Part shown: positions 24,701 through 64,000 of the stretch, piece after piece
Layout: the number at the start of each line of letters is the position of its first letter
Numbering within the stretch: position 1 is the first letter of the stretch
Assembly (NCBI RefSeq): GCF_963855985.1
Contig: NC_087117.1
Coordinates: 5,001-69,000 of the forward strand
Length of the DNA stretch: 64,000 bases
DNA from: Ostrinia nubilalis
Lineage: Eukaryota; Arthropoda; Insecta; Lepidoptera; Crambidae
Direction: 5' to 3'
Position numbers and translations under genes: made by a program
The notes under the pieces: generated by a model
The model's database searches: none
Told to the model about the DNA's origin: nothing
Seen by the model: the letters and a program-made list of their open reading frames with translations, nothing else

Positions 24701-27700
24701 GACAGTGAAGATGTAAATAATAAAATAAAGATTAAAAATAATAATCAAAAGACGGTAACAGAGTCTTCTTCCGATGAAGAAGAAACCGAAAATGTTAGAG
24801 CGAACACTAACAAAAATTCTAAACAGGCGACATCTTCAGATGAGTTCGACGATACGAACAAGACGTTGTGGAGGAAAAACCAAAAGAAACATACTGCAGA
24901 TAATGATGAATCCGAAGACGAAAACACGAACAAAATGAGGACTAGAAACCAGAATCAGGTTCAATCTTCTTCCAATACCACGAAAACGAAGAGCAAAAAC
25001 ACGAAAACGAACGCGAAAACATCGGGCGAAGATACAGATAAAGAGAATAAAGCTGAAGATATGAAGAAAAGGTTGAGAAACAAATCGAACGTCACCGTTA
25101 TCAGCTCCAGCTCGGGCGAAGATAAAAATGATGATGATGAGTTCGCCAGGAAGGCCAAGGTGTCGAAAGTCGTGAAACGCCTGAAGAAACGGATACGAGC
25201 TGCTCCTAAGCCCAGCGAAACTTCGTGAGTGTTTTACTATTTTATACTTTTTTATTAGATTTTTTCATGCCTTAATTTTCAAGTAGTGATTGCACCTTAA
25301 TCCAGTATTAGAAGGACTAAGTGCCATTTATCATTTTGTTATTAGTGGACGAGCTTACGCCTCCATTGGCATAGATTTTAATAAACAGTAACAAATTCTA
25401 ACAAATCTGTGAACTAGCCTGATGCCAAAGCTATAATAACATTGTACATTTTCTACAAATTATCACTCGTATGATGTTGTTACACGTTACGTGTGGCCTT
25501 TGAAACGTTACACGTAGCGTGTGATACTTTACACGTGACGTGTGATACGTTGCACGTGACGTGTGACACGTTGCATGTGATTTGTGGCACGTTACGCGTG
25601 ACATGACGTGTGATATATTAACACGTGACGATTTTCATGTGGTGTGTGAATGTGTGATATAGATGACCCACGCTGAACTGTCCCACCAAACTCAATGACA
25701 GGGGGGCGCTACCATCGTTCAACTATATGGTTTCCAACATGGCAAAAATCGGAACCAGCGATCCGGTATTGACGGTGGCGCCCCGCTGTCAATGTCATGG
25801 TTAGGACAGTTCAGTATTTTAGAACTATACCTTACACATGACGTGTGATATGTTACACGTGTTGTGTGACACTTTACACGTGCCGTGTGACGCGTCACGT
25901 GTCGTGCGTCGTATATGTCGTAACGTTTGCCGTGTCGTGTGTGGCAGGCGCGTGTATTCCACGCTGGAGGACCAGGCCATCGTGTCGTGGGTGTCGGCGG
26001 GTCGCGAGCGGCTCGTCAACGGGAACGCCGTGTGGCAGGAGCTGCAGACCAGGTTCCACTCCATCGCCGGACGCAGTGAGTCACCAGAATAGTGTTACCA
26101 TCATCATCATCATTATCATTTCAGCCACAGGGGAGCTGCAGACACGGTTCCACTCTATCGCCGGACGCAGTGAGTCATTAGAATATTGTTACCATCATCA
26201 TCAGCATCATCATTTCAGCCACAGGGAAGCTGTAGACCAGGTTCTACTCCATCGCCGGACGCAGTGAGTCATCAGAATATTGCTATCATCATCATCATCA
26301 TCATTTCAGCCACAGGGAAGCTGTAGACCAGGTTCCACTCCATCGCCGGACGCAGTGAGTCATCAGAATATTGTTGGGCTACGGTCTCATATCAAACGCT
26401 ATACGACGACGTAGGTACGACGCGATGTCAACGTCAAACGTTCCTATGGACGCCGTACGCCGACGTCAACGTCTGAAAAAGATCACAATTCACAACAGTA
26501 CATTTCTAAGTAAGTATTGTCATTTTATAGGAGACCACAGCCGGGCAGCCTTACGAAATGTAAAATCTTACTAGCCATAATACGAGTAAAGACCGTTTCA
26601 TCCACTCGGACGCGCCCCACCAATTGTTGGTCTCGGTCGCGCGGGGAGTTTGATCGGAGCAATCCGAGCGGCATTATTGTAGTGTGTGTGTAACACTCAA
26701 ACATTAGCGAAAGAATGGTGGGGCGCGTCGTCGTTGATGAAACGATCTACAGGGTGGAATTTTGTAATGCCACCTGGAGGGAAAGTACTCTTAATACTGT
26801 AGATAGAACATTTTACTCAAAGAAAACATTCCTTTATTTTTGAAAAGAAAGAGAACTGCATTCAAAGCTTTTCTAAATTTTTTCGAAAATTCACCACCAT
26901 ACCATGTAATTTTCTGTAAATAATTTAAGATTTCATGGTTTTCCTTTCATTTGATTTATCAAGTTTGTTAGAGAGATTTCATCCTTATACTTAACCCTAA
27001 CGATCGATGCAATAAAAATAAAGGGTGTAATTTTAGGCAAATTTTACTTGGTTCGATTCCCAGGTGTCATGTGGCAAGCCAATTTTTAGAAATCTTTGAA
27101 TGCAGTTCTATTTCTTTTCCTAAATTAAGGAATGTTTCCTTTGAGTAAAATTTTCTATCTACAGTATTAAGAGTACTTTCCCTCCAGGTGGCATTACAAA
27201 ATTCCACCCTGTATAACGGTCGTGGGTCCCGTCTCGGCCTCGTGTCTTTCTCCTGTCTCTGTCGCGGTGCGAACCGCCTCCTAAAAAGTGCTCTTTGGGA
27301 GCTTACTTGCATAAATAAATATTTTATTTTGATTTGATTGTATTGTAACGTTCGTTTGCGTGTGTCAGGCCGCACGTGGCACTCGCTGCGCAACCGCTAC
27401 CTGCGGCACATCCTGCCGGCGCTGGGCCGCCTGGCGCTGCCGCCCGCGCAGATCGCCCGCCTGCGAGCCGCCGCCGCACAGGGTGAGCATACTACGTGTA
27501 TATTTCAACATTAAAACCATATTAAATATCAGCTGAGCTTTCTTTAACCGACTTAACAAAAGGAGGACGTTCTCAATTCGGTTGGGTTTTTATGTATGTA
27601 CACCGATTACGCCGATATTTCTGATCCGATTTACGAAATTCTTTTTTGATCGATGCGAAATAGTTGCCATTTATTTGGTCCCATTAAAATTTAATTTAAT

Positions 27701-38220: not shown

Positions 38221-38299
38221 GTATCATATAATAAAGGTACTGTTATATTATACTGGCAGCGCATCCCTAGTCCCCTATACTGAGCATTTATTTTTAATA

Positions 38300-44768: not shown

Positions 44769-47700
44769 CTGAAATAAAAATAATACTGGCTACAATAATT
44801 GTTTGATTTAACTGTCACTTTAATAAAACTTATTTTCGTTAAGTGATAAGCAAGGATGGATGCGATTTGTTCAGATCCTTTCCCAGCGCAAAACTTTGAC
44901 TATACTCGCGTTGTTTCCCGGAGGTTGCAACCAGGCGACTTCGATCGTGGACGATGAAATTGAAATCGAAGAGTCTGTACATACCTACTTTGGGAGTATA
45001 GCTCGTATGTTGACGTTATTGAGATACTGACTTTATTGTGACCGTCTTAAAGTACCTAAAGCACAGGTATAGTGGTGTCACTTCTCACAACTCAGGAGCG
45101 ACATTTGCCTTGACCCTCGATAATATTGAGGGTGTGATCAGGGGATTGGATATTCTGACCTTGATGGTGCCCTGGCTGTTGGCGGCGAGCAGCACCTGGC
45201 TGTCGGCGGGCCGGCGCCAGCAGACGGCGGACACGAAGTCGCAGGGCTCCTCGTCGCGCCGCTCGCGCTCCAGCACTCACCTTGATGGTGCCCTGGCTGT
45301 TGGCGGCGAGCAGCACCTGGCTGTCGGCGGGCCGGCGCCAGCAGACGGCGGACACGAAGTCGCAGGGCTCCTCGTCGCGCCGCTCGCGCTCCAGCACTCA
45401 CCTTGATGGTGCCCTGGCTGTTGGCGGCGAGCAGCACCTGGCTGTCGGCGGGCCGGCGCCAGCAGACGGCGGACACGAAGTCGCAGGGCTCCTCGTCGCG
45501 CCGCTCGCGCTCCAGCACTCACCTTGATGGTGCCCTGGCTGTTGGCGGCGAGCAGCACCTGGCTGTCGGCGGGCCGGCGCCAGCAGACGGCGGACACGAA
45601 GTCGCAGGGCTCCTCGTCGCGCCGCTCGCGCTCCAGCACTCACCTTGATGGTGCCCTGGCTGTTGGCGGCGAGCAGCACCTGGCTGTCGGCGGGCCGGCG
45701 CCAGCAGACGGCGGACACGAAGTCGCAGGGCTCCTCGTCGCGCCGCTCGCGCTCCAGCACTCACCTTGATGGTGCCCTGGCTGTTGGCGGCGAGCAGCAC
45801 CTGGCTGTCGGCGGGCCGGCGCCAGCAGACGGCGGACACGAAGTCGCAGGGCTCCTCGTCGCGCCGCTCGCGCTCCAGCACTCACCTTGATGGTGCCCTG
45901 GCTGTTGGCGGCGAGCAGCACCTGGCTGTCGGCGGGCCGGCGCCAGCAGACGGCGGACACGAAGTCGCAGGGCTCCTCGTCGCGCCGCTCGCGCTCCAGC
46001 ACTCACCTTGATGGTGCCCTGGCTGTTGGCGGCGAGCAGCACCTGGCTGTCGGCGGGCCGGCGCCAGCAGACGGCGGACACGAAGTCGCAGGGCTCCTCG
46101 TCGCGCCGCTCGCGCTCCAGCACTCACCTTGATGGTGCCCTGGCTGTTGGCGGCGAGCAGCACCTGGCTGTCGGCGGGCCGGCGCCAGCAGACGGCGGAC
46201 ACGAAGTCGCAGGGCTCCTCGTCGCGCCGCTCGCGCTCCAGCACGCCGCGCGCCGCGTCGAAGCGGTACGCCAGCAGCGGCCGCGACAGACCCGCGTAGT
46301 ACACGTATCTGGGACGCACGGAACACATTAGTAACTGCCTTGATCGATCATTGACTAGGGGGCGTCCATTAACCGATTGAGTCCCAGACGGCATTAATTA
46401 ATGTCATAACAATTGATTATCTATTGTGTCTAGATTCGCGGAGCTTGAAGAATTAATTACGTGAGACAATTTTGACTATTTTTAACCCCCCCCCCCCCCC
46501 CCGCCCCCCTTGGTGAGATTTCATGAGATTTTGGCAGACCCCCTCCCCCACCCCCTAATCTATCGTGAGATTTTCCAAAATGCCAATTTGCAATGTAAAT
46601 GAGATAATACATGCTATATATAATAATGTAAATGAGATAATATAAGCTAATTAATATCATTGCTGAAAAGGAAAAACTTAGGTATAGATTTAAAAGATTT
46701 GGTAATCCACGTGATAAAATTGAATTTGAAATTTTACGAGATCGTTGTAGGCAACTAACTAAATCTCTCTACAAGGCTTAGGTATATAGCAAGAGTTGAA
46801 GACAATGTTCACAAAAATCCTAAATACTTTTGGAAATACATTAAGGACAAAAGGGCCGGCTCTGGGACCATTCCATCCAACATGTACAGAGAAAACGTCA
46901 AAGCATGCTCTGCCAGTGAGGTGGTAAATCTTTTCGCAGCTCAATTCAGTTCTGTCTACTCAGGACCTTCCAAGCTGGAGAGTAAGCACACTGTTGACAT
47001 TTTTGAAAACCTTCCACTACATAAAGTCACCATACATGAGAGACAGGTTTTACATAGATTGAAACGCGTTGATGTACACAAGAGTGCAGGACCCGACAAA
47101 ATACCACCGTTATTCCTAAAAAGGTGCGCATCAGTAATGGCCTATCCGCTGACTGAAATCTTCAATAAATCCTTATCTACTGGCATATTTCCCGAGGAAT
47201 GGAAAAAGGCACGCATTGTCCCTATCTTCAAGAGTGGCGAGCGTGAAAATGTCAAAAACTATAGGCCTATTTCCATCTTGTCCGCTATGTCTAAACTCTT
47301 CGAATCCCTAATATGCCCAATTCTTACTAACTATACAAAAAACATGATAAGCGATCAACAGCACGGCTTCCGGGAAAAAAAATCTGTTACTAGCAATCTT
47401 TTCTCCTACACCAACTTACTGATTGGGGAAATTGATTCGGGTGGACAGGTGGACTCAATATATACGGATTTTAGCAGTGCGTTTGATAAAGTAGACCACT
47501 TGACATTATTGAGTAAGTTGGAAAAGTCGTATGGTATAGCGGATCCTTTCTTGTCATGGTTTGAATCATACCTTGCTGGCCGTACCCAGTCTGTAGTCGT
47601 GAGCGGGCATGAGTCGTATAGCTATAAGGCAACTTCTGGAGTTCCCCAGGGTTCCCACCTAGGTCCTGTACTGTTCGTAATTTTTGTGAATGACGTTGTA

Positions 47701-50700
47701 CGGCGCGTAAAACACAGTTATTGTTCACTGTTTGCTGACGACATGAAAATATACCGCGAAATTAAATCCTGGGAGGACTCCGCACTTTTACAGGAAGATA
47801 TAGAGTCCGTTTATCAGTGGTGCCAGGACAATAAAATGATCTTAAACGTGGCAAAATGTCACCATATAACTTTCACTAAAAAAAGAATCCCTCTTCAGAC
47901 CTCTTACTCAATAAATGGTTCTCAGGTTGGCAGGGTTGATGAGATAAGAGATTTGGGTGTCATCCTGGATAAAAAGTTATCATTCATATCGCACTATAAT
48001 AACATCGTCAACCGGGCTTCCCGTATGCTTGGCTTCCTCAAGCGTGCCACAAAAGATTTTCGTCGAATTGACGCCAAAATAGCTCTCTATAATTCCCTTG
48101 TTAGGTCTATTCTCGAGTTCAGCAGCAGTTGAAAAAAGGATTCCATACTATGGTATGGAATCCTTTTTTCAACACACACATCAACAGAATAGAAAGAATA
48201 AACCGCTCTTTCACGCGACATCTAGCTTTTGTCAGTCGCGGTCAGATTACCGTGCACAACAGCTATGAAGAACGTCTTGATTTCTTCAAAATGCAGAAAC
48301 TATGCGACCGTCGCAAGACGCTAGACTTATTTTTCTTACACAAACTTCTCAACGGCATGGTAGTTTCCCAAGACTCACTTGAAAAAATTCGTTTTCGTGT
48401 TCCAAGGCAAAGTTCTCGCTATCTCTGTAGAGACCTCTTTCACATCCCTTTGTGCAAAACTAAGTTAGGCCAAAACTCGCCACTTAACCGGTTGTGTGCA
48501 ACGTATAATAAAGCGGTGGCTGGCAACTAGGGATTGCAATCCGGTCCGGCGGATCCGGTAATCCGGCGGATCCGGTGTGTTTTTGGACCTACCGGATCCG
48601 GTGAGTCGGCGCCGGATCCGGTGGCGGATCCGGTAAAGCAAAAAATACGCGAACGTGAACTGGGAAAGTCGAGTGCGCGCGCATTTGCCAGATCGCTAGA
48701 CGTGCCGCGACACTACATTGTATTTTCCTTTGCAAAAAATAAATGCTTCTTGTTTTATTGTTTCTTAGGAGTCAGATTGTTTCTTAAAAAGAACTGAAGT
48801 TGAATTTATAAGTACAAATTTAAAAGACTGTTTTGTTGATTTAAGTCTGTGTACCTAGATTATTAATAAGAGTTTAATAGTATTATTACTTAAGTACTTT
48901 CAGATAGGTACTTACATACAGCAATAAGTGAGAGTCAGACTGATTACTAACTTTATTATTTAAAATTTTCATAATTTTATTAGTACAAATTAGTACTTAC
49001 CAAAAATTACAATTAATACCGAAAAATATAAATAAAAGTGACTTTATTTTCCATAAATACGTATTTTCTTGTTCTTTTTATGTACTATTATCAAAACTAA
49101 AAATCACTAAATACTAGACCAAGTTACTTTGCAATCCGGCCGGATCCGTCCGGATCCGGCCGGATTAGCGTCAATCCGGTGAAATCCGGCCGGATTGAAA
49201 ATGATACCGGATTGCAATCCCTACTGGCAACCCAGACACAGACACCGGTCTTGACGTTTTCGGTGACAGCCTCCCTAAATTTAAGTCAAAACTCAAGCCT
49301 GTATTCGGAACGACTTAGGCACCGAACAAAATGAACAATTACTAAATCCTTTATATTGTTCGGTGCTTAAACTCTAGACTCTATTCAATTGATTTTTGTT
49401 TTTACTAGTGTATAATTACCCTAACATTGCAAAAAGAAATGCTGTGTATACCTGTAATTGAGGTCATATACGTATCATGTGTTAAACCATGTTAAAATGT
49501 ATGAACTGTATTATGTATGTGACTTTGTTGGTGTACCTAATAAATAAATAAAATAAATAAAAATAAAACATGCTTCGAAAATATTAGATTTTATAAAAAT
49601 AACCCGACCTGCGTAAAAAATTTACTTTTAGTACAATTTTTAACTATTAGTTTACATTTTGTTAATATTTAAGCATTGGTAGCAAACTGCGGATCTAAAA
49701 ACTGGGCCTGTGTTCATAAATGCAGACGGAGGATTTACTCTGTTTGTTGTGGAAAAAAATTTACGTGATATTTCTCGACACCCCCCCTCTCCCCCACGTG
49801 AGATTAAGTGAGGTTTTTCTGGACCCCCTCCCCCCTAAAAGTCTCACGTAATTTATGGACGCCCCCCTAGCATGCATCTCAGAATTACACGACGCGTAGA
49901 GAACAAATTTCAATCTAATTTGAGTAAATCTTCCGGCCAAATCAATGCGTTCAGCCTGCATCGCGATAGCGATCACTGTGCTTGCAAAAGTTGTTCACAC
50001 TGCCGCGTTCGCGTTCCTAACGTTCACGTTGAAAAATCCATTTTAAAATCAGAAAATCGCTAATGTCGCATACAGACACTGAACCGGACGCCACCTCCAT
50101 TGTCAAGACGCGTCAATGTGAACACATAGCAACAAGTTCATACACGACATCTTTTCACCATCATGCACGATATCGCGTACGCAAGCTGAACGCATCGGTT
50201 TGGGCTAAGCTTAGTAAAAAAAAGTTAAATATTTAGTTTTTTCTAGTGTTAAAGTACCCTAACTTTGCAAAAAGAAATGCTGTGTATACCTGTAATGAGG
50301 GCTATCGTTTTAGCGCTCACCAGTTGGCGCCACTGTAGAGTAAGGTCCTGTCACTTGCTAGTAGCGAAGACAGTGGCGCCAACTTGTGAGCGCTAAAGTG
50401 GTAGGAGGACTATCGCATTTGCACTCATCAAGATGGCGCCACTGTCGAGTAAGGTCCTGTCAATCGCCAGGGGTGCCAACTGTTAGGTATAAAAACGATA
50501 GCCCTCATTGAGGTCATCATGTGTTAAGCATGTTAAAATGTCTGTACTGTATGTGATTTTGTTGGTGAACCTACTTAATAAACAAATAAATATAAAAAGG
50601 ACTCACAGCGCGTTGTTCTCCGATCCGCAGGCGAGGTACTTCCCGTCGGTGGCGAGCCCGACGAAGTTCTTCTCGTTGGCGTGCCCGCTGAACGACCGCA

Positions 50701-53700
50701 CCACGCGCGGGCTGTCCACGCGCCACAGCTTCAGCTGCGAGTCCGTCGACGCCGACACCAGCGCGCGCGCGTCCAGGAACTGCACGTACGACACCGCCTT
50801 GCGGTGGTCGCGGAACACCTGCAAGGATCTGTGCTCAGCTGTGGCGCCATCTACACAGCGCCACAGCTGCAGCCGCGAGTCCGGCGACGCGACACCAGCG
50901 CTCGTCCAGGAACTGCACGTACGACACCGCCTTGCGGTGGTCGCGGAACACCTGCAAGGATCTGTGCTCAGCTGTGGCGCCATCTACACAGCGCCACAGC
51001 TGCAGCCGCGAGTCCGGCGACGCGACACCAGCGCTCGTCCAGGAACTGCACGTACGACACCGCCTTGCGGTGGTCGCGGAACACCTGCAAGGATCTGTGC
51101 TCAGCTGTGGCGCCATCTACACAGCGCCACAGCTGCAGCCGCGAGTCCGGCGACGCGACACCAGCGCTCGTCCAGGAACTGCACGTACGACACCGCCTTG
51201 CGGTGGTCGCGGAACACCTGCAAGGATCTGTGCTCAGCTGTGGCGCCATCTACACAGCGCCACAGCTGCAGCCGCGAGTCCGGCGACGCGACACCAGCGC
51301 TCGTCCAGGAACTGCACGTACGACACCGCCTTGCGGTGGTCGCGGAACACCTGCAAGGATCTGTGCTCAGCTGTGGCGCCATCTACACAGCGCCACAGCT
51401 GCAGCCGCGAGTCCGGCGACGCGACACCAGCGCTCGTCCAGGAACTGCACGTACGACACCGCCTTGCGGTGGTCGCGGAACACCTGCAAGGATCTGTGCT
51501 CAGCTGTGGCGCCATCTACACAGCGCCACAGCTGCAGCCGCGAGTCCGGCGACGCGACACCAGCGCTCGTCCAGGAACTGCACGTACGACACCGCCTTGC
51601 GGTGGTCGCGGAACACCTGCAAGGATCTGTGCTCAGCTGTGGCGCCATCTACACAGCGCCACAGCTGCAGCCGCGAGTCCGGCGACGCGACACCAGCGCT
51701 CGTCCAGGAACTGCACGTACGACACCGCCTTGCGGTGGTCGCGGAACACCTGCAAGGATCTGTGCTCAGCTGTGGCGCCATCTACACAGCGCCACAGCTG
51801 CAGCCGCGAGTCCGGCGACGCGACACCAGCGCTCGTCCAGGAACTGCACGTACGACACCGCCTTGCGGTGGTCGCGGAACACCTGCAAGGATCTGTGCTC
51901 AGCTGTGGCGCCATCTACACAGCGCCACAGCTGCAGCCGCGAGTCCGGCGACGCGACACCAGCGCTCGTCCAGGAACTGCACGTACGACACCGCCTTGCG
52001 GTGGTCGCGGAACACCTGCAAGGATCTGTGCTCAGCTGTGGCGCCATCTACACAGCGCCACAGCTGCAGCCGCGAGTCCGGCGACGCGACACCAGCGCTC
52101 GTCCAGGAACTGCACGTACGACACCGCCTTGCGGTGGTCGCGGAACACCTGCAAGGATCTGTGCTCAGCTGTGGCGCCATCTACACAGCGCCACAGCTGC
52201 AGCCGCGAGTCCGGCGACGCGACACCAGCGCTCGTCCAGGAACTGCACGTACGACACCGCCTTGCGGTGGTCGCGGAACACCTGCAAGGATCTGTGCTCA
52301 GCTGTGGCGCCATCTACACAGCGCCACAGCTGCAGCCGCGAGTCCGGCGACGCGACACCAGCGCTCGTCCAGGAACTGCACGTACGACACCGCCTTGCGG
52401 TGGTCGCGGAACACCTGCAAGGATCTGTGCTCAGCTGTGGCGCCATCTACACAGCGCCACAGCTGCAGCCGCGAGTCCGGCGACGCGACACCAGCGCTCG
52501 TCCAGGAACTGCACGTACGACACCGCCTTGCGGTGGTCGCGGAACACCTGCAAGGATCTGTGCTCAGCTGTGGCGCCATCTACACAGCGCCACAGCTGCA
52601 GCCGCGAGTCCGGCGACGCGACACCAGCGCGCGCGCGTCCAGGAACTGCACGTACGACACCGCCTTGCGGTGGTCGCGGAACACCTGCGAAGGATTAGGC
52701 CTCGCCCATCAGATACAGGGGTGTCTGGTGGCGTCTAAAGAGGCCGCGACGGCGCAGCACGTGTCCTGCGTGCCGCTCGCAGGAGGTTGAAGGCGTAAAG
52801 ACTGCCGAGCGAGACGAATGCCGAGCAGGGAACGCGGACGAATGCTTGAGGCAAAACCCCGACAGTGATGTCCCGCGTTCCCGACTCATATGGCTATCGA
52901 GGGCAACGTCAGGTTTTTAGTGGGTAGGTCCTGCCCTTATGGCAGGGAGAACCCCACATAACCCACTAGCTGCCCCCGCGGCTGGTGGGTATACAAATTA
53001 ATGTATTTTCCTGACGATAAAAAAAACACCTGCAAAGGATCTGTGCTCAGCTGTGGCGCCATCTACACAGCGCCACAGCTGCAGCTGCGAGTCCATACGA
53101 GGAGAGAGGAAATCATTGGGGAGATCTATACTTGACACAATGACTGGCACACGCTAACCGCGCCTGCAAACCTACATCGCGATATCAGAGTTTTCTGCCC
53201 TTAAAAGTGTATAAAGAAGACCGAGATTGTCAGTAATTGGGCCTTAGTCCCCGAGCACAACACCTGCTCGGAAGGAAGCATAACATCTAAGCTTCATCAA
53301 CAGCCCTTTACAGTCCACTGCTGGACTATGAGCCTCCTCCACTATAGTGGAGGGTTTTGCCATAATCTCCACGCTTGGCAGGCGGGTTGGAGATAGCAGT
53401 TTAAAAGATTGATGTTTTTCAGAGAGCGCTGCTGCCCATTCTCTGTTTGATGTGTAGTCCCTAAGTCGCCTCTTACGACACCCGCGGGAAGAGTAGGGGT
53501 TGGTGACAAATGTATTCTACTCTGCCGTCACCACACGGCTTCATCTAAGCTTATTGTGGTTGAACAGCAACAAGTCCCGGTAGCTAAGATGATGGTAACG
53601 GTGAGTGACTGAGTAAAAGTGAGCTCGCAAGTGTTTGTTAGCTTGCTTAGCTCACGGGCTCGCTCGCTAGCTCGCCAGTGTACCTGCAGCGGGTGGCGCG

Positions 53701-56700
53701 GCGCGCGCAGGTCGTAGTAGTGCACGCAGTGGTCCGCGGAGCCGAAGGCGAGGTGGCAGGAGGAGCGCGGGTTGAAGCGCACGCAGCCACGTTGAACATT
53801 GTTCGTTAGCTCGCTAGCTCACGGGCTCGCTCGCTAGCTCGCCAGTGTACCTGCAGCGGGTGGCGCGGCGCGCGCAGGTCGTAGTAGTGCACGCAGTGGT
53901 CCGCGGAGCCGAAGGCGAGGTGGCAGGAGGAGCGCGGGTTGAAGCGCACGCAGCCACGTTGAACATTGTTCGTTAGCTCGCTAGCTCACGGGCTCGCTCG
54001 CTAGCTCGCCAGTGTACCTGCAGCGGGTGGCGCGGCGCGCGCAGGTCGTAGTAGTGCACGCAGTGGTCCGCGGAGCCGAAGGCGAGGTGGCAGGAGGAGC
54101 GCGGGTTGAAGCGCACGCAGCCACGTTGAACATTGTTCGTTAGCTCGCTAGCTCACGGGCTCGCTCGCTAGCTCGCCAGTGTACCTGCAGCGGGTGGCGC
54201 GGCGCGCGCAGGTCGTAGTAGTGCACGCAGTGGTCCGCGGAGCCGAAGGCGAGGTGGCAGGAGGAGCGCGGGTTGAAGCGCACGCAGCCACGTTGAACAT
54301 TGTTCGTTAGCTCGCTAGCTCACGGGCTCGCTCGCTAGCTCGCCAGTGTACCTGCAGCGGGTGGCGCGGCGCGCGCAGGTCGTAGTAGTGCACGCAGTGG
54401 TCCGCGGAGCCGAAGGCGAGGTGGCAGGAGGAGCGCGGGTTGAAGCGCACGCAGCCACGTTGAACATTGTTCGTTAGCTCGCTAGCTCACGGGCTCGCTC
54501 GCTAGCTCGCCAGTGTACCTGCAGCGGGTGGCGCGGCGCGCGCAGGTCGTAGTAGTGCACGCAGTGGTCCGCGGAGCCGAAGGCGAGGTGGCAGGAGGAG
54601 CGCGGGTTGAAGCGCACGCAGCCACGTTGAACATTGTTCGTTAGCTCGCTAGCTCACGGGCTCGCTCGCTAGCTCGCCAGTGTACCTGCAGCGGGTGGCG
54701 CGGCGCGCGCAGGTCGTAGTAGTGCACGCAGTGGTCCGCGGAGCCGAAGGCGAGGTGGCAGGAGGAGCGCGGGTTGAAGCGCACGCAGCCACGTTGAACA
54801 TTGTTCGTTAGCTCGCTAGCTCACGGGCTCGCTCGCTAGCTCGCCAGTGTACCTGCAGCGGGTGGCAGGAGGAGCGCGGGTTGAAGCGCACGCAGCCACG
54901 TTGAACATTGTTCGTTAGCTCGCTAGCTCACGGGCTCGCTCGCTAGCTCGCCAGTGTACCTGCAGCGGGTGGCGCGGCGCGCGCAGGTCGTAGTAGTGCA
55001 CGCAGTGGTCCGCGGAGCCGAAGGCGAGGTGGCAGGAGGAGCGCGGGTTGAAGCGCACGCAGCACACGTTGAACTTGGCCTCGAGCGTGGCCACCGACCG
55101 CTCGGCGTTCAGCGCCCACAGCTTCACGCGCGCGTCGTCCGAGCCCGACGCCAGCAGACGCACGTCCGCCCTGCGAACATACAATGCACACGTGTTTATA
55201 AAAGGGGAAGACCAAGAAGGGTGAGAGTCACTTATAAAGACCAAGAAGGGGGAGAGACACTTTATAGAGACCAGGAAGGCCCCCCATTCACTCACGTCAC
55301 GGTCACTTTAAAGATACTAGAAGGGGGAGAGTCACTTTAAAGATACTAGAAAGGGGAGGGTCACTTTAAAGATACTAGAAAGGGGGAGAGTCACTTTAAT
55401 GATACTAGAAAGAGGAAAGATAAATAGAAGGGGGAATCAAGGGGGGGAAGAATTTATCGAGACCAAAAGGGGAGAATCACTTTATAAAGACCAGAAAGGG
55501 GAGTGAATATACTAGAAGGGGAAGAGTCACTTTATTGAGACCAAAAGGGGAGAGTCACTTTATCGAGACCAAAAGGCGAGTCACTTTATAAAGACCAGAA
55601 AGGGGAGGTTCACTTTAAAGATACTAGAAGGGGGAGAGTCACTTTATTAAAGACCAAAAGAGGAGAGTCACTTTATCAAGACCAAAGGGGGAGAGTCACT
55701 TCATAAGGGTCAGAAGAGGGACAGTCGGTTAACAGTAAATAATTAATAGTTGAAAATTAAAAGTCAGAAGCAAAGGTTGTTTTTTGGTTGTTTAACCTGG
55801 CTTAAAAAAAAGTCGTTGGTTACAACCGCATCTTCACAGCATAAAGTTCAAATTGATGTGGACTCTATGTCCACCACACGTGTGACGTCACACACCGGGG
55901 CGACGGAGACCGTTCCCTCGTAGTCGGAGGACGCGGCACGTGCTCGTGTGACGTCACACGCCGGGAGCGGCACCGACCTGTTGAAGTGCACGGACCAGCA
56001 GCGCTTGTCGTGCTCCTGCAGCGCTGCCGGTGGCCGCGTCCCACACGGAGACGGTTCCCTCGTAGTCGGAGGACGCGGCACGTGCTCGTGTGACGTCACA
56101 CGCCGGGAGCGGCACCGACCTGTTGAAGTGCACGGACCAGCAGCGCTTGTCGTGCTCCTGCAGCGCTGCCGGTGGCCGCGTCCCACACGGAGACGGTTCC
56201 CTCGTAGTCGGAGGACGCGGCACGTGCTCGTGTGACGTCACACGCCGGGAGCGGCACCGACCTGTTGAAGTGCACGGACCAGCAGCGCTTGTCGTGCTCC
56301 TGCAGCGCTGCCGGTGGCCGCGTCCCACACGGAGACGGTTCCCTCGTAGTCGGAGGACGCGGCACGTGCTCGTGTGACGTCACACGCCGGGAGCGGCACC
56401 GACCTGTTGAAGTGCACGGACCAGCAGCGCTTGTCGTGCTCCTGCAGCGCTGCCGGTGGCCGCGTCCCACACGGAGACGGTTCCCTCGTAGTCGGAGGAC
56501 GCGGCACGTGCTCGTGTGACGTCACACGCCGGGAGCGGCACCGACCTGTTGAAGTGCACGGACCAGCAGCGCTTGTCGTGCTCCTGCAGCGCTGCCGGTG
56601 GCCGCGTCCCACACGGAGACGGTTCCCTCGTAGTCGGAGGACGCGGCACGTGCTCGTGTGACGTCACACGCCGGGAGCGGCACCGACCTGTTGAAGTGCA

Positions 56701-59700
56701 CGGACCAGCAGCGCTTGTCGTGCTCCTGCAGCGCTGCCGGTGGCCGCGTCCCACACGGAGACGGTTCCCTCGTAGTCGGAGGACGCGGCACGTGCTCGTG
56801 TGACGTCACACGCCGGGAGCGGCACCGACCTGTTGAAGTGCACGGACCAGCAGCGCTTGTCGTGCTCCTGCAGCGCTGCCGGTGGCCGCGTCCCACACGG
56901 AGACGGTTCCCTCGTAGTCGGAGGACGCGGCACGTGCTCGTGTGACGTCACACGCCGGGAGCGGCACCGACCTGTTGAAGTGCACGGACCAGCAGCGCTT
57001 GTCGTGCTCCTGCAGCGCTGCCGGTGGCCGCGTCCCACACGGAGACGGTTCCCTCGTAGTCGGAGGACGCGGCACGTGCTCGTGTGACGTCACACGCCGG
57101 GAGCGGCACCGACCTGTTGAAGTGCACGGACCAGCAGCGCTTGTCGTGCTCCTGCAGCGCTGCCGGTGGCCGCGTCCCACACGGAGACGGTTCCCTCGTA
57201 GTCGGAGGACGCGGCACGTGCTCGTGTGACGTCACACGCCGGGAGCGGCACCGACCTGTTGAAGTGCACGGACCAGCAGCGCTTGTCGTGCTCCTGCAGC
57301 GCGCGCGTGCGCGTGCCGGTGGCCGCGTCCCACACGGAGACGGTTCCCTCGTAGTCGGAGGAGGCGAGCACGTTCTTGTGGTACGCGTTCCAGGACACGC
57401 ACGAGATCTTGTGCGAGCACTGCATCTCGGCGCACGGGTAGTGCACGTCCACGGCATCCCGCACCACCGCTTCGTACTCGAACACCTGGAAATCGAGGTT
57501 CTCGTGAATTTTGATCTGCTGTCCTCGCTGACATTCGGAGCCAATAAAACTCAGGTTTGATGAATATTTCGTATTATTTGAAAATGTATTGCAATAGTGC
57601 GTATCGCGCGGCGACTGGAAGGTAAGTGATTTTGACAGTACAAAATAATAATTATGAAGTTTAAAAACGCCTGCGATAAAGCAATAGCAAACAATTACAC
57701 GTACTAGAAATTACGATTTAGATAAGAAAGTAAGTTAATTAATTATTTAATTATAAGTTATGCAACTAAGTATTTGAGACACTTGATAGACGGATTGAGC
57801 CGTAACATCTGCTTTTATCATAAAGTTGATTATACCTAGCGGAATAGAGCAACAAAGGATTAAGCGAGCAAGTTCACTAGCAGCAACGCTGTGTATAAAA
57901 AAGATGCGTGATACGACGTAACAGAACCGTTTTTTGCAACTATTTGACAGTTCGTTAGCATTGGCACGCCAAAAACTTGAGCTCTGAGATTTTTTCAGAT
58001 TTTACGTGAGTGAAATCGTTAATGTTTATGAGAAGTGCTTCTGAAACGTGGTGAACTGGTGACTGGTTCAGTGATTGATTATTATTGTACAAAACAGGGG
58101 AATAATCCTGAAAAGTGACACACAAATGACATACAGTGACATCCTAAAATCGGTTTAGTTGACAGCTCGCGGTTCTTGCTCTATTCCGAAGGAATATTAA
58201 CTTTATGGCTTTTAGCTAGATAGCTTGATCTAAACACTGTCACTAAATTTAAATTAAATTCATGTTATATGCGTGACCGCTGATGGCCGCTGGGGCAGGA
58301 AAGTTCTTAAGTGGCGACCTCGAGCCGGAAGACGTAGCGTGGACAGGCCTCCCACTAGGTGGACCGACGATCTGGTGAAGGTCGCGGGAGGTGCCTGGAT
58401 GCGAGCGGCGCAGGACCGGTCTTTGTGGAAATCCTTGGGGGAGGCCTTTGTCCAGCAGTGGACGTCTTTCGGCTGAAACGAACGAACGAACGAACGATAT
58501 GCGTGACGTCACCTTGATCCGCTTGGTGACGCCGGCGATGGCGAAGAACTCGTCGTCCTTGTCGAACTCGATGGTGGACACGATGGTGGAGTAGTTGATG
58601 GCGTCGCTGCAGTACGACAGCGTGGCCAGCGGCCGCAGCGTGCGGTAGCGCGTGAACGCCACCAGGTCCTCGCGGAAGGCTTCAAGACCGCGGGCGCCGC
58701 CTAGCAAACGACAGACTGATATAGACCCATTACAGCAAGCAAGCAAGTAATTGCTATGGAAATGCCTTGAATGCCTTGAATCCTTAAATGCCTAGAGTTG
58801 GACAGACTGATATAGGCTAAAAGCGGGAGTCACTTTATCAAGACCAAAAAGGGGAGTCACTTTATAAGAGCCAGAAGGGGGAGAGACCAGAAGGGGGAGA
58901 GTCGCTTTATAGAGAATTGAAGCGGGAGTCACTTTATCAAGACCAAAAAGGGGTGTCACCTTATAAGAGGCAAAAAGGGGAGAGTCCCTTTATGTAAGCC
59001 AAAAAGGGGAGAGGCACTTTATAAAGACCAGAAGGGGGAGAGTCGCTTAAAAATACGCCTCATTAAATTAAAATTTAAAAAATTAATAAAATAAATTATA
59101 GGTGCCGGAAGGAGGAGAGTCGCTTTATAGGGACCAGAAGGGGGAGAGTTACTTTATAGAAACCTGAAGGGGGAGAGTCACTTTATACGGACCAAAAGGG
59201 GGGCAGTCACTTTACAGTAAATAATTTATAGGGATTTAAAAAGTGTAGTGCAGTGGAATAATTTTAAAAATTAAAACTAAGAAGCAAAGATTGACCCGGT
59301 TGTTTGTTGCGCTTTTCTAAATCGACCGTATCGCTGGTCTTACCCTCTAAACCATACACAAAACAAGAAAGAAAGAAATACACAGAAATAATTTACGCCG
59401 TCAATAAGCTCAACAAAAACAAGCATTACTGTACCTTGCGGCTGCGGCGCGCGGCTGGAGGCGCCCACCGAGTGGTGCGGCGAGCCCACCGGCGCCGCGC
59501 CCTCGGGCAGGCGCTGGTCGCCGCCTGGAACAAGCGAGCCTTCTTGAATTACAGTTCATACGTTAGAAAGAATGACGCGGGCGTTATTGCAAAAAAATAT
59601 ATTATTAAAAACCAAAAACCCAACTGCGTATGTTCGGTGTAATATGACCGAACAAACTGAATCAGCGCACTCGTTCGCGATGCATCGATTTTACCTCAAA

Positions 59701-62700
59701 TAACTAATTAGTGCAAATCACGGAACCATCGCGACCGGGTGCGCTCAGAACATTTTTAACATTTTAACATAACATTTTAACATACAAACTCTTTTATTGC
59801 CCGACCAGGAACATAAAAACCCTCGCCATGTTGCGGAAAACTAATGGTACTAATTTCTTTTAATGGCAACAGTAACTGAAAACTTCATTGACATGTCACC
59901 TTGCATGTCAGTCTATTGCTGTCAAAGTGTAAACAAACTTTATTTTAAATGTGCGCAATTGATTTTGTGAATTAAATTGCTAAAATCTTTTTATAGTCGT
60001 GAAAGAAAAGTGGTTCACAATGTGTTAAAGTATTTGTCGAAGAGAAATACTAAGGGTTCGGACAATATTTTCATTAAATAATGTTTCCGACAAAGGTTGT
60101 CAAATTGACTGACATGTTTATCGTATAGTACAGTCCACTATGAAAATTAGCTGTGGTTTGTTTCAACTACCTATTTCAAATTTTTTTGTCATTTTCTAAG
60201 TGTTGAATTTTATGGAATTGGGAAAGAAGTACCGAGTTTGATGCGTTCATGAGCAGACATTGCAGTTGAATATTCAAGTTCTGAATTTGACTATTCATGA
60301 TTAATAAAATAAATCCTACTAGCTCGATTGATGGTTTCATTTAATTTATTTAAACCAGGTTACCTATAATAATATTTTTTCGTTAATTAATGAAAATATC
60401 AAATTAGCCCGTAATCCTGAATCCTGATACATAAAGTTAGCCAATTAATTTAACACAGGTACGACTGTACTCAGTGTTGCACTATCAAATGCAATTGTCG
60501 CGCCTCTATGCCAGGGTTTTTATGTTCCTGGTCAGGCTATAATCCAAACATTCAAACCCTGAGCCGCAATAGCGTAAAAATGAACTAAAAAGAAACTACT
60601 AAAACAAATAAATAAATCATTTATTTGCTCAGAAACATGGTGACAAGACAACTTAGTGGTTCACAAATGCAGTCGGAGGCATCAATGACTATTTCTTTTC
60701 TTCCGCCATTCTTCTCAGCACCAGCCCATATTATTATGTTGACCTCAAGAGTTGGGGAGGGTCTGCAGCCTCACTACGGGGTCACAAAAAAAAGTGAGAC
60801 TGCGACACTGAGTGAGGTATTCAGTGTCGCAGTCTCACTTTTTTTATCCACAACGAGGAAGCTCTTGGACTGTATCTCACCTGATGATAAGTGATGATCA
60901 GGCCGAAGGTGGAAGCGAGCTTCACCCGGAATCCTCAACCACGGAGGAACTGGCTATCTTAACTCTAACTGCCGGAACACAACAATGCTGTTAACATTGT
61001 TGTTATGGCGACGGACTTAGGTAAGATGGTGGTAGCTAGCCAGGCGGACTTAGAACAAGCCCTACCACCAACCAAATGAGGGCTATCGTTTTAGCGCTCA
61101 CCAGTTAGCGCCACTGTGCGCTAAAGTGGTAGGAGGACTATCGCATTTGCACTCATCAAGATGGCGCCACTGTAGAGTAAGGTCCTGTCAATCGCCAGGG
61201 GTGCCAACTGTTAAGTATAAAAACGATAGCCCTCATTGAACAGAAAAATGTGCCCCCACTGGGAATCGAACCCGGGACCTCTGCGTCTGAAGCAAGTGGT
61301 TTTACCACTAGACCACAGAAGCGGTTACCACTACGGGGTCTCTACTCACAAGCGGCGCCCTCAGGCGGCGGCGGCTCGGGCGCGGGGCTCGAGCCCGGGA
61401 AGTGCAGCTCGTCGCTACGGGGTCGCAGCCTCGCTACGGGGTCTCTACTCACAAGCGGCGCCCTCAGGCGGCGGCGGCTCGGGCGCGGGGCTCGAGCCCG
61501 GGAAGTGCAGCTCGTCGCTACGGGGTCGCAGCCTCGCTACGGGGTCTCTACTCACAAGCGGCGCCCTCAGGCGGCGGCGGCTCGGGCGCGGGGCTCGAGC
61601 CCGGGAAGTGCAGCTCGTCGCTACGGGGTCGCAGCCTCGCTACGGGGTCTCTACTCACAAGCGGCGCCCTCAGGCGGCGGCGGCTCGGGCGCGGGGCTCG
61701 AGCCCGGGAAGTGCAGCTCGTCGCTACGGGGTCGCAGCCTCGCTACGGGGTCTCTACTCACAAGCGGCGCCCTCAGGCGGCGGCGGCTCGGGCGCGGGGC
61801 TCGAGCCCGGGAAGTGCAGCTCGTCGCTACGGGGTCGCAGCCTCGCTACGGGGTCTCTACTCACAAGCGGCGCCCTCAGGCGGCGGCGGCTCGGGCGCGG
61901 GGCTCGAGCCCGGGAAGTGCAGCTCGTCGCTACGGGGTCGCAGCCTCGCTACGGGGTCTCTACTCACAAGCGGCGCCCTCAGGCGGCGGCGGCTCGGGCG
62001 CGGGGCTCGAGCCCGGGAAGTGCAGCTCGTCGCTACGGGGTCGCAGCCTCGCTACGGGGTCTCTACTCACAAGCGGCGCCCTCAGGCGGCGGCGGCTCGG
62101 GCGCGGGGCTCGAGCCCGGGAAGTGCAGCTCGTCGCTACGGGGTCGCAGCCTCGCTACGGGGTCTCTACTCACAAGCGGCGCCCTCAGGCGGCGGCGGCT
62201 CGGGCGCGGGGCTCGAGCCCGGGAAGTGCAGCTCGTCGCTACGGGGTCGCAGCCTCGCTACGGGGTCTCTACTCACAAGCGGCGCCCTCAGGCGGCGGCG
62301 GCTCGGGCGCGGGGCTCGAGCCCGGGAAGTGCAGCTCGTCGCTACGGGGTCGCAGCCTCGCTACGGGGTCTCTACTCACAAGCGGCGCCCTCAGGCGGCG
62401 GCGGCTCGGGCGCGGGGCTCGAGCCCGGGAAGTGCAGCTCGTCGCTACGGGGTCGCAGCCTCGCTACGGGGTCTCTACTCACAAGCGGCGCCCTCAGACG
62501 GCGGCGGCTCGGGCGCGGGGCTCGAGCCCGGGAAGTGCAGCTCGTCGCTACGGGGTCGCAGCCTCGCTACGGGGTCTCTACTCACAAGCGGCGCCCTCAG
62601 GCGGCGGCGGCTCGGGCGCGGGGCTCGAGCCCGGGAAGTGCAGCTCGTCGCTACGGGGTCGCAGCCTCGCTACGGGGTCTCTACTCACAAGCGGCGCCCT

Positions 62701-62909
62701 CAGGCGGCGGCGGCTCGGGCGCGGGGCTCGAGCCCGGGAAGTGCAGCTCGTCGCTACGGGGTCGCAGCCTCGCTACGGGGTCTCTACTCACAAGCGGCGC
62801 CCTCAGGCGGCGGCTCGGGCAGCGCGGGCTCGGGCGCGGGCGGGGTGGCGGCGGGCGCGGGGCTCGAGCCCGGGAAGTATAACTCGTCGGCGCGGTGCGC
62901 GAAGTAGCA
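44751..62909 (-). CDS. COP1: COP1 E3 ubiquitin ligase, C-terminal part (partial)
   Basis: Eight exons on the minus strand, in transcript order: 62909-62792, 59524-59435, 58700-58513, 57485-57256, 55170-54960, 50818-50607, 46308-46128 and 44768-44751. Phases join perfectly (1248 nt, 415 residues plus stop). The protein reads as the linker and seven-bladed WD40 domain of COP1 (RFWD2), with [25 protein letters not shown] and [13 protein letters not shown] at the C-terminus. In animals COP1 is a RING-type ligase; the WD40 domain binds Val-Pro degron peptides, and the protein works with DET1-DDB1-CUL4. The RING and coiled coil must lie beyond 64000. An Ala/Pro-rich insert (first two visible exons) lies between coiled coil and WD40. 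Five introns hold exon-derived tandem arrays. Confidence 0.96.
45001..45158. other. Intron DNA between the terminal micro-exon and array 1
   Basis: No features seen. The intron from 44769 to 46127 also contains array 1. Confidence 0.4.
45159..46127 (-). repeat. Array 1: 121-bp units copied from the COP1 last-blade exon
   Basis: Eight copies, besides the functional exon, of the exon's last ~115 bp plus its donor, almost identical. Seven carry GTGAGT at the donor; the outermost (near 45159) has GTCAGA and passes into unique DNA. The period is not a multiple of three, so the copies are in rotating frames. The functional exon is at the right-hand end. Confidence 0.95.
46128..46308 (-). CDS. COP1: COP1 exon (last blade)
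   Basis: Encodes Tyr-Val-Tyr-Tyr-Ala-Gly-Leu through Ala-Asn-Ser-Gln-Gly-Thr-Ile-Lys. Acceptor GTCCCAG. The nearest donor (GTGAGT, 46127-46122) must be used, because reading into array 1 meets stops. Confidence 0.93.
48129..48172. repeat. 20-bp foldback inside the LINE frame
   Basis: Arms TTGAAAAAAGGATTCCATAC and complement with a 4-nt loop. The left arm is an inverted copy of the LINE sequence just downstream and introduces a stop codon. Confidence 0.85.
48528..49223. mobile_element. Non-autonomous hAT element with 8-bp duplication
   Basis: Ends TAGGGATTGCAATCCGG / CCGGATTGCAATCCCTA, flanked on both sides by CTGGCAAC, an 8-bp target duplication as in hAT elements. 696 bp; terminal regions are rich in GGATCCGG blocks and the centre is AT-rich. 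No transposase. It interrupts the LINE RT frame. Confidence 0.9.
49868..50225. other. Intron DNA without recognised features
   Basis: Short frames only. Lies inside the COP1 intron 46309-50606. Confidence 0.4.
50228..50600 (+). mobile_element. LINE 3' UTR copy carrying a MITE, abutting a COP1 donor
   Basis: Matches the 3' UTR at about 49400-49567 ('aaaaagaaatgctgtgtata', 'catgttaaaatgt') but is interrupted by a MITE. Its AT-rich tail ends at the COP1 donor GTGAGT (50606-50601). Confidence 0.8.
50295..50509. repeat. MITE family M2, copy 1
   Basis: TIR GAGGGCTATCGTTTT and complement, with an internal 'ggcgccactgt' / 'acagtggcgcc' pair. Comparison with the empty site at 49462-49478 indicates duplication of AT. 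Related copy at 61079-61237. Confidence 0.88.
50607..50818 (-). CDS. COP1: COP1 exon (WD40 blades)
   Basis: Encodes [16 protein letters not shown] and Cys-Gly-Ser-Glu-Asn-Asn. Acceptor CCTTGCAG, donor GTGAGT (50606-50601). A LINE 3' tail ends beside that donor, and array 2 precedes the exon. Confidence 0.95.
50819..52695 (-). repeat. Array 2: 133-bp units copied from the 5' end of a COP1 exon
   Basis: Fourteen copies besides the exon at 50607-50818, each containing the acceptor region (CTTGCAG|GTGTTC) and the first ~100 bp of the exon in altered form. The 13 inner copies share a shortened 'gagcgctggtgt' where the exon has a (GC)n run. The outermost copy (about 52625-52690) has the exon-like GC run. 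This is the only array upstream of its exon. Confidence 0.95.
52696..53025 (+). mobile_element. 5'-truncated LINE inserted in array 2
   Basis: 330 bp ending in a poly(A) tract, flanked by 15-bp direct repeats ACACCTGC(G/A)AAGGAT (52681-52695 and 53026-53040). The body ('tttttagtgggtaggtcctgcccttatggcaggga', 'ccccgcggctggtgggtat') is the 3' end of a LINE; R1-clade is a guess. Confidence 0.85.
53041..53098 (-). repeat. Displaced end of array 2
   Basis: The remainder of an array 2 unit ('ctgtgctcagctgtggcgcc' onward) cut off from the array by the LINE, ending at 'gcgagtcc'. Confidence 0.85.
53285..53548. repeat. Dispersed lepidopteran repeat
   Basis: Includes 'cagtccactgctggac' at its left, and 'tagtccctaagtcgcctcttacgacacccgcgggaag' and 'ctgccgtcaccacacgg' at its right. 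A typical retroposon-like unit; no protein recognised. Confidence 0.55.
53636..54959 (-). repeat. Array 3: 167-bp units copied from a COP1 exon 3' end
   Basis: Eight copies besides the exon at 54960-55170, each with the last ~105 bp of the exon, the donor (CAG|GTACAC) and a short 'gctagctcgc'-rich spacer. Donor copies lie near 53682, 53849, 54016, 54183, 54350, 54517, 54684 and 54851. The copy next to the exon is shortened (107 bp) by an internal deletion of 60 bp. Confidence 0.95.
54960..55170 (-). CDS. COP1: COP1 exon (WD40 blades)
   Basis: Encodes [14 protein letters not shown] and [11 protein letters not shown]. Acceptor TTCGCAG, donor CAG|GTACAC. Array 3 follows. Confidence 0.95.
55200..55725. 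repeat. Minisatellite, about 28-bp degenerate unit
   Basis: Units of the form 'agtcactttataaagaccagaaggggg' repeated about 18 times with variation, in the intron between the exons at 55170 and 57256. The same unit recurs at 58815-59215. Confidence 0.85.
55880..57255 (-). repeat. Array 4: 142-bp units copied from a COP1 exon 3' end
   Basis: Nine full copies plus a partial one, besides the exon at 57256-57485, each with the last ~95 bp of the exon, the donor (AACAG|GTCGGT) and a 'tgacgtcacac' spacer. Every copy lacks 11 bp of the (CG)-rich run present in the exon, which would shift the frame. Each unit contains TGACGTCA. Confidence 0.95.
57256..57485 (-). CDS. COP1: COP1 exon (WD40 blades)
   Basis: Opens Val-Phe-Glu-Tyr and contains [11 protein letters not shown] and [10 protein letters not shown]. 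Acceptor TTTCCAG, donor AACAG|GTCGGT. Array 4 follows. Confidence 0.95.
57560..58266. other. COP1 intron, AT-rich
   Basis: No gene or RNA gene seen. Confidence 0.4.
58278..58496 (+). mobile_element. 5'-truncated RTE-type LINE with 11-bp duplication
   Basis: The C-terminal tail of RTE RT (Arg-Trp-Thr-Asp-Asp-Leu ... Trp-Lys-Ser-Leu-Gly-Glu-Ala) with a (CGAA)n end, flanked by ATATGCGTGAC (58267-58277 and 58497-58507). Antisense to COP1. Confidence 0.88.
58513..58700 (-). CDS. COP1: COP1 exon (start of WD40)
   Basis: Encodes Leu-Glu-Ala-Phe-Arg-Glu-Asp-Leu, then [13 protein letters not shown] and the first blade. Acceptor TTTGCTAG, donor AAG|GTGACG. An RTE fragment ends 17 bp from the donor. 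Confidence 0.93.
58815..59215. repeat. Second minisatellite of the 'agtcactttat' family
   Basis: The same ~28-bp unit as 55200-55725 but in a different COP1 intron, interrupted by AT-rich DNA at about 59045-59100. Confidence 0.82.
59435..59524 (-). CDS. COP1: COP1 exon (linker)
   Basis: A 90-nt exon with acceptor TTCCAG and donor AAG|GTACAG. It encodes a Gly/Pro/Ser/His linker and joins both neighbours in frame. No tandem array accompanies it. Confidence 0.8.
59797..60540. repeat. TIR element of about 740 bp
   Basis: Ends 'gcccgaccaggaacataaaaaccct' and 'agggtttttatgttcctggtcaggc' are inverted; the interior is AT-rich with no transposase frame. Confidence 0.75.
60787..60845. repeat. Perfect 25-bp hairpin
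   Basis: Left arm starts AAAAAAAGTGAGACTGCGAC; the right arm is its exact complement, with a 9-nt loop. Lies in a COP1 intron. Confidence 0.9.
61079..61237. repeat. MITE family M2, copy 2
   Basis: The same TIR as 50295-50509 with an internal deletion of about 55 bp; AT on each side. Confidence 0.85.
61247..61322 (-). other. tRNA-like sequence (SINE or tRNA pseudogene)
   Basis: Minus-strand sequence with a good B box/T arm (GGTTCGATTCC) and an A-box-like 'tggtctagtgg', but the D stem and acceptor stem do not pair properly and the anticodon arm is irregular. Best read as a tRNA-derived remnant. Confidence 0.5.
61331..62791 (-). repeat. Array 5: 103-bp units copied from a COP1 linker exon
   Basis: Fourteen copies besides the exon at 62792-62909, each with the exon's 3' end, GTGAGT donor and a duplicated 'ctacggggtc' spacer. 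All lack about 35 bp of the Ala/Pro coding run present in the exon. Copies are almost identical; one carries a G-to-A change near 62498. Confidence 0.95.
62792..62909 (-). CDS. COP1: COP1 exon (linker, Ala/Pro-rich)
   Basis: Acceptor CTTGCAG at 62916-62910, donor GTGAGT at 62791-62786. It opens with Cys-Tyr-Phe, the conserved end of the COP1 coiled coil, then a Pro/Ala/Glu-rich insert. Array 5 follows directly. Confidence 0.85.
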
Positions 62910-62984: not shown

Positions 62985-63410
62985 AGGTAACATTTTACAC
63001 AAAATGACTGTACGGGGCATTTCACTTAAACATGTTAATGCGGTATAAAAATAATTAATTTTGGTAACATTTTACCCGTAATATCTGCACGGGGAATTTC
63101 ACATAAAAGTGTTGTGATGAAAAAAATATGAATTTTGGTACGGGGAATGTCACTTAAATGCGTTAATGCTGTGTATAAATCATGAATTTTGGTAACATTT
63201 TACTTAAATGCCCGTACGGGAAATGTCACTTAAATGTGTTAATGCTGTGTAAAAATCTTGAATTTTGGTAACATTTTCCTCAAAATGCCCGTACGGGGAA
63301 TGTCACTTAAATGTGATATGGTGTAAAATATGATGAATTTTGGTAACATTTTCCTCAAAATGCCCGTACGGGGCATGCCACTTAATTTTGGTAAAAATTT
63401 TACTCAAAAC
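62985..63410. repeat. Five-copy tandem repeat of about 80 bp
   Basis: Unit 'cccgtacggggaatgtcacttaaatg...gaattttggtaacatttt' repeated with increasing divergence. It lies upstream of the first visible COP1 exon, in an intron. Confidence 0.8.
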
Positions 63411-64000
63411 TCTTGTGGCAAATGTGTAGTTTAATTGGTAACTCTGTGTGTTATACAGTGTGTCCGGGCATGTAGTGATCAAACTTTAAAGGCGTAATCT
63501 ATGGACAATTTTGTCGGTGAAAATACTTTAAATTTGGGGCTTGACCCATTTCTCGCATTTTTACAAGGATTTAAGTTTTTAATTTTAAGTTTTCACCTCT
63601 TCCTTCAAAAACAAGTGATAGCGTGGGTAACTTAACATTAATAAGCAAATATTTTATATCATGCGATAGCCAATAAAATTATCTACTAGTAGAAGTAGAA
63701 AACAGACACAAGTTTCATACATTTTAAGGGAGTAAGAATGGATTTAATTAGAAATAAACATGATTTTTTTCACATCTTTTTCAGTTATTTCCCAACACAA
63801 GAAAAACCAGGTCGTTAAGGTATGTTTTATTTACATTGTATTATTAGTATTTGAGCCATTCTACAAAACGAATGTAAATTTATTAGTCTACGTCTATTAG
63901 TTTCGACGTAATTGTTGTACAGATATACCCATTCCCAGCGGTTTCCATAGTAATCGGAATAGGTTGTGTGATTCTTTCAGGCAGTGCATTTTCGCATGTC
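63411..64000. other. COP1 intron to the window edge
   Basis: AT-rich DNA. I looked for the preceding COP1 coiled-coil exon on the minus strand and did not find it here. Confidence 0.4.

Follow-up and report, generated by a model that had tools for sequence, protein, structure and literature searches.

Five of the eight COP1 exons visible in the window, the whole 64-kb stretch of DNA analysed here, each adjoin an intronic tandem array built from copies of their own splice junction, with periods in TRF of 121, 133, 167, 142 and 103 bp, as the sequence-only reading had described. One further array, which that reading overlooked, lies in an adjacent gene, giving a total of six exon-edge arrays in two genes and on two strands. 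The COP1 cluster is real and unusual, and the presence of five such arrays in one gene within a 64-kb window is striking. We consider it probable that the arrays originated by ordinary tandem duplication in GC-rich exons, were filtered by selection and were then amplified and homogenised.

Anatomy of the exon-edge arrays

The COP1 (RFWD2) gene occupies the minus strand of the window, where its eight 3' exons are visible between 44751 and 62909:

62909-62792, minus strand: COP1 exon E1
59524-59435, minus strand: COP1 exon E2
58700-58513, minus strand: COP1 exon E3
57485-57256, minus strand: COP1 exon E4
55170-54960, minus strand: COP1 exon E5
50818-50607, minus strand: COP1 exon E6
46308-46128, minus strand: COP1 exon E7
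44768-44751, minus strand: coding part (to the stop) of COP1 exon E8, a short final exon encoding VLELV-stop

Joining the eight exons yields a spliced translation of 415 codons with zero internal stops and GT/AG ends at 7/7 internal junctions. Residues 59-415 of this translation match human COP1 (5hqg) with an E value of 1.3e-155, extending to the last residue. The top-scoring database relative is Plutella xylostella COP1 (81% over the whole query), and some partial COP1 records are closer still, at up to 90% over 69% of the query. Every named entry from rank 1 to rank 41 of the match list is a moth or butterfly, with no other insect named before rank 47, and the window is judged to be lepidopteran; a search for COP1 relatives in viral contigs gave two stretches that fit a pattern and zero that were confirmed. 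The spliced COP1 protein needs no unit-derived sequence. The five COP1 arrays and the one in the neighbouring gene are as follows:

45160..46244, minus strand: array A, 121-bp unit consisting of the last 117 bp of E7 plus GTGA; 9 copies including the exon
50819..52695, minus strand: array B, 133-bp unit from the acceptor side of E6, of which some 98 bases are exon-derived and altered; 14 extra acceptors upstream of E6
53632..55073, minus strand: array C, 167-bp unit consisting of the last ~110 bp of E5, the donor and the intron start; 9 copies including the exon
55903..57380, minus strand: array D, 142-bp unit consisting of the end of E4 (with an 11-bp deletion), the donor and the intron start; 10 copies including the exon
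61331..62888, minus strand: array E, 103-bp unit consisting of the end of E1 (with deletions and substitutions), the donor and the intron start; 15 copies including the exon
26038..26376, plus strand: array F, 94-bp unit consisting of the last 38 bp of a Rap1-like Myb exon, the donor GCA/GTGAGT and the intron start

Exact motif searches together with TRF returned 8, 14, 8, 9 and 14 extra junction copies for arrays A to E, reproducing the numbers of the sequence-only reading, and the resulting total of 53 comprises 39 donors (A, C, D and E; one altered to GTCAGA) and 14 acceptors (B; one of them a variant), which bears out the earlier statement that the gene holds more than 50 extra splice sites. 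Also reproduced was the asymmetry between the arrays, four of which (A, C, D and E) follow their exon and carry donors, with B alone preceding its exon and carrying acceptors. When the real site is included, the motif searches find 9 donors in A (8 GTGAGT and 1 distal GTCAGA), 9 in C, 10 in D and 15 in E, and 14 acceptors in B plus a variant copy at 52685. With 7.4-14.8 tandem copies by TRF in A to E and 3.6 in F, all are minisatellites, taken as arrays in which a unit of 10-200 bp recurs head to tail three or more times; in A to E and in F alike the unit contains the splice site of the adjoining exon, and in 6/6 arrays the exon itself forms one end. The TRF intervals of the COP1 arrays amount to 7,367 of the 18,159 bases between E1 and the stop codon (41%, with C taken as the union of two TRF rows and the exon copies counted). 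Searching the window with E2, E3 and E8, each with 40-base flanks, returned no copy elsewhere; the E3 search gave two 19-21 bp matches, both in the E3 flank.

The plus-strand gene that houses array F encodes a Rap1-type Myb domain (PF08914, E 1.3e-9, a match obtained on the two array-flanking exons joined by hand). Its donors lie at 26075, 26169, 26263 and 26354, and its units are 88-95% alike, that is 5-12% diverged, and hence more diverged than those of the COP1 arrays. Since array F sits in a second gene, the underlying process is not specific to COP1.

Several other repeats and mobile-element-like sequences were observed in the window. Positions 1-16203 are a satellite of 104-124 bp subunits in 357- and 481-bp periods (TRF), rich in GGTTAGG / CCTAAC, motifs reminiscent of TTAGG, the insect telomere repeat; the satellite is possibly subtelomeric. 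Two direct repeats of 239 bp (37698-37936 and 38296-38534; 99.2% identical, starts 598 bp apart) could be either an element's terminal repeats or the product of a recent duplication. The intron between E6 and E7 contains a reverse-transcriptase ORF (46759-48173; PF00078, E 1.7e-32) with an inverted repeat of 21-bp perfect arms at its end (48128 and 48153), and two COP1 introns share 125-bp copies that are 97.6% identical (50387-50511 and 61115-61239) and look MITE-like by eye.

Unit uniformity, shared changes and apparent turnover

The units within each COP1 array are close to uniform. Counting the real-exon copy and the edge copies, letter-identical units make up 8/9 in A, 13/15 in B, 6/9 in C, 9/10 in D and 12/15 in E. 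Such near-perfect identity in GC-rich sequence would be expected of an assembly or amplification artefact, a reading that we regard as highly improbable in view of the way the units differ from their exons. Array A shows zero change from E7 over 117 bp, and in the other 4/5 COP1 arrays the units have in common indels or substitutions that the exon lacks: relative to E6 the B units show 5 substitutions and deletions of 4 bp and 1 bp; in C, a 1-bp deletion and a junction substitution set the units apart from E5; D has lost 11 bp of E4 in a CG-rich run and also differs next to the junction; and E differs from E1 by deletions aligned as 21 and 12 bp and by 3 clustered substitutions. The reading frame is thus broken by indels in the B, C and D units, the deletions in E sum to 33 bp, and A has none.

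Variation at the level of single units likewise argues against an artefact. Edge units differ from the rest, single units of C and E carry a 60-bp deletion and a substitution, respectively, and the outermost copy of array B (52685) retains the bases that are missing from the inner copies through their 4-bp deletion. In addition, array B is split by an insertion:

52680..53040, plus strand: retroposon-like insert of ~330 bp inside array B, with an A-rich end and a target-site duplication

The 16-bp target-site duplication, at 52680 and 53025, matches at 15/16 positions, and unit sequence of array B is found on both sides of the insert, with an acceptor remnant near 53030 and a remnant of the unit to ~53090. 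The unit-shared changes, the edge variants and this insert with its target-site duplication argue that the arrays have existed in the genome through time, and the divergence among the array F units points the same way. Exact copy numbers could nonetheless be wrong, and in array A taken alone little other than the changed distal donor speaks against an artefact. The distal edge of array E has a duplication of 11 bp or more (60773 and 61330), which suggests the trace of another insert; between the two copies, adjoining that edge, ARAGORN places a tRNA-Leu-like sequence (61250-61322), which is perhaps part of an insert.

The state of the exon in relatives was followed by pattern searches at two places in 37 of 120 listed COP1 relatives. 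At the first, DEL/DDL is followed by Y in 30/31 relatives in which the pattern was found and by F in 1, and the H encoded by array E occurs in 0/31; at the second, SASTDS-x-LKLW, which is lost from array B, is present in 34/34 relatives where found. At both places, therefore, the COP1 exons of this genome keep the state typical of their relatives. Because the common unit differs from the exon and the exon keeps the state of the relatives, the units are best read as altered copies that were amplified or homogenised later.

A rough clock was set using a mutation rate of 2.9e-9 per site and generation. The internal units show 1 point difference in 6,423 bases, a count that excludes edge copies and the 60-bp deletion in C, as against the 5 substitutions in ~98 exon-derived bases of B. 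At this rate the time since uniformity is ~5e4 generations (Poisson upper bound 3e5), the founding of array B dates to ~2e7 generations ago, and that of array A, with 0 differences in 117 bases, is bounded at 9e6 generations. The clock is rough in that the substitutions of B fall within the latter half of its exon-derived sequence, which conversion or a clustered event could explain. Uniformity is recent relative to the founding of the arrays, and the arrays therefore seem to turn over continually.

Exon-edge position and the origin of the arrays

Units A to E have a GC content of 0.66-0.75, GC3 is 0.83-0.99 across the COP1 exons (0.92-0.99 in the seven larger ones), and 1-kb windows of the COP1 locus that contain none of the arrays A to E have a GC content of 0.33-0.41 (47001-50000, 59001-61000 and 63001-64000). 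To judge how far exon-edge position is surprising, we collapsed the arrays to give a COP1 locus of 11,505 bp; the resulting values depend on which copies we chose to remove, on the requirement of at least 9 bases on each side of a boundary and on the GC cut-off of 0.60. A random seed of unit length then spans a splice boundary with a probability of 0.105-0.171, and five out of five has a probability of 4.5e-5; for array F the corresponding random-seed value is 0.106. Among seeds of at least 60% GC the boundary-spanning probability is 0.38-0.67, depending on unit length, and that of five out of five becomes 0.035, or ~0.13 once wholly exonic windows are dropped. The earlier argument against ordinary minisatellites, that they would not start on exon ends time after time, was hence too strong. 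The position at exon edges is largely predicted by GC-rich seeding together with purifying selection, with some excess left.

The same argument is further weakened by arrays in the COP1 locus that are not exon-derived. Related 29-bp minisatellites, AGACCAGAAGGGGGAGAGTCACTTTATA-like, occupy two COP1 introns (55201-55721 and 58811-59217), each upstream of an exon acceptor, of E5 and E3 respectively, and a 76-bp array (62986-63394) lies in the intron upstream of E1. These are tandem like A to E, but their units contain no exon sequence, and their TRF matches are 65-90% as against 98-100% in A to E. Among arrays with a period of 60-200 bp and at least 3 copies, 6/7 span a splice boundary, the seventh being the 76-bp array; this tally takes TRF rows outside the 16-kb satellite and excludes a degenerate coding repeat at 36152-36485, which has 2.2 copies.

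The explanation we favour is in terms of minisatellites (VNTRs) for which short tandem duplications in GC-rich coding exons would have supplied the seeds. A duplication lying wholly within an exon would in most cases disrupt the gene and disappear; one that spans the boundary would leave one intact exon with a working junction, its extra copies falling in the intron and being spliced out. Because wholly exonic duplications would mostly disrupt the gene and intronic copies would be removed by splicing, it is mainly the boundary-spanning ones that would survive. An intronic copy would then be free to change, as the frame-breaking indels of B, C and D and the in-frame deletions and substitutions of E may record, and the copies could have been amplified and kept uniform by unequal exchange, slippage or conversion. 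Three observations speak against this account: array A shows no decay; E2, the most GC-rich COP1 exon (0.833), has no array; and the unit of array F is lower in GC. Moreover, five out of five remains somewhat unusual even with GC-rich seeds, at the probabilities given above with and without the exonic filter.

One could instead imagine a dedicated process acting at exon edges, in which replication or transcription stress at the GC step, co-transcriptional R-loops, or RNA-templated or template-switching repair repeatedly duplicates junctions in this lineage. The 6/7 arrays found at splice boundaries, the random-seed probabilities for COP1 and F, and the occurrence of arrays in both genes and on both strands would fit such a process, which we nevertheless judge rather unlikely: most of the excess vanishes once seeds are conditioned on GC, the preponderance of the donor side (5/6 arrays) is insignificant (two-sided coin 0.22), and folding gives no structure common to the units. 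In single-strand DNA folding against dinucleotide shuffles, B gave z scores of -3.4 and -3.2, D in sense -2.2 and E in antisense -2.2, and the remaining 8/12 folds lay between -1.1 and +1.5; hairpin-driven slippage was rejected as a general cause, strong excess structure being found in unit B only. The proposal that amplification is specific to the locus and tied to GC-rich exon edges stands in part, in that the five COP1 arrays are indeed GC-rich, and fails on locus specificity, array F lying in a neighbouring gene. GC alone also leaves array F unexplained, because its unit is lower in GC, is not notably GC-rich and has a CAT run in the intron part. A broader version, in which lineage-wide hotspots copy junctions into introns across the genome and splicing picks among them by position alone, seems to us unlikely; if true, many genes would carry long runs of identical decoy splice sites. 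Ordinary duplication followed by a selection filter fits the data at least as well as a dedicated process.

Splice-site choice and known systems

The nine-base donor is the same as the real one in 9/9 copies in C, 10/10 in D, 15/15 in E and 8/9 in A, the real copy included. In none of arrays A to E is the common unit length divisible by three. If the frame is continued through the real donor, a stop follows directly in C and E, within the second copy in D and at the third donor in A; use of the second donor in A or D would add 121 or 142 bases, respectively, and shift the frame. In array B, entry at any of the 13/13 exact-copy distal acceptors leads to a stop after 38 codons. Because the other sites give stops or a frame shift, normal COP1 appears to require the junction copy on the intact exon, and we infer that splicing would use the junction attached to that exon, meaning the first of the donors or, for array B, the final acceptor. 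A search with the array-A read-through peptide, restricted to proteins 0.55 to 1.75 times the query length, gave 12 proteins among 426 candidates, each aligned over 33% of the query; the array junction was found in 0/12, and 12/12 continue into the ordinary COP1 C-terminus, a result for array A that does not bear either way on whether the source species uses the sites.

Tandem exon duplication, including that which gives rise to mutually exclusive exons, involves whole exons with both splice sites and intact frames. The COP1 arrays resemble it in placing copies of exonic sequence beside an exon, but differ in that they consist of partial exons with one junction and are altered in 4/5 cases: units of A, C, D and E carry the donor-side edge only and those of B the acceptor-side edge only, so that no copy combines an acceptor, a donor and an intact frame as a mutually exclusive exon would. 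In a reported potato case, a tandem duplication across an intron-exon boundary copies splice signals as here; that case comprises a single duplication and a new intron, whereas the present arrays have 4-15 copies, with the extras apparently inside an old intron.

The closest precedent is the VNTR in intron 18 of human ABCA7, a tandem array which likewise flanks an exon and has a 25-bp unit that starts at GT and includes the exon 18 donor (2018; PMC5954066). ABCA7 involves that one short-unit array in one gene; in the present window the units are 94-167 bp long and contain as much as 117 bp of coding exon, there are five arrays in one gene and one next door, and one array is on the acceptor side. 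In ABCA7 the next copy can serve as donor, retention of one unit with a frameshift having been seen, and in 90% of cases the alternative transcripts in one brain area were jointly more abundant than the canonical one (PMC5954066). With array length, exon 19 skipping rises and total expression falls, and unit retention does not rise (PMC5954066). Decoy-rich arrays can therefore matter.

The arrays might act on COP1 itself, by way of decoys that reduce productive splicing or produce truncated isoforms under regulation, with selection maintaining the arrays. The match of nearly all donors to the real one, the stops behind the distal B acceptors and the behaviour of longer donor-carrying ABCA7 arrays could all be taken in this sense. 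We think it very unlikely, since donor identity is a consequence of the overall uniformity of the units, in which the coding-derived parts vary just as little, and since unit retention in ABCA7 is unchanged with array length (PMC5954066). Duplication in GC-rich exons followed by selective loss thus remains our preferred origin for the arrays. In the literature searched, from which most subscription papers fell outside the scope, we found neither several exon-edge arrays in one gene nor the present locus; the kind is known from single cases, and the number of arrays per gene, the long coding-derived units, the acceptor-side array and the involvement of a second gene were not met there.

Series of 9 to 15 near-identical donors amount to a natural competition test of splice-site choice where the sequence itself gives no basis for deciding, and in which rules based on first transcription, exon size or proximity would be measurable from the RNA of one species. 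If exon-edge arrays are common in Lepidoptera, they would generate splice variation by mutation and could also mislead gene annotation.
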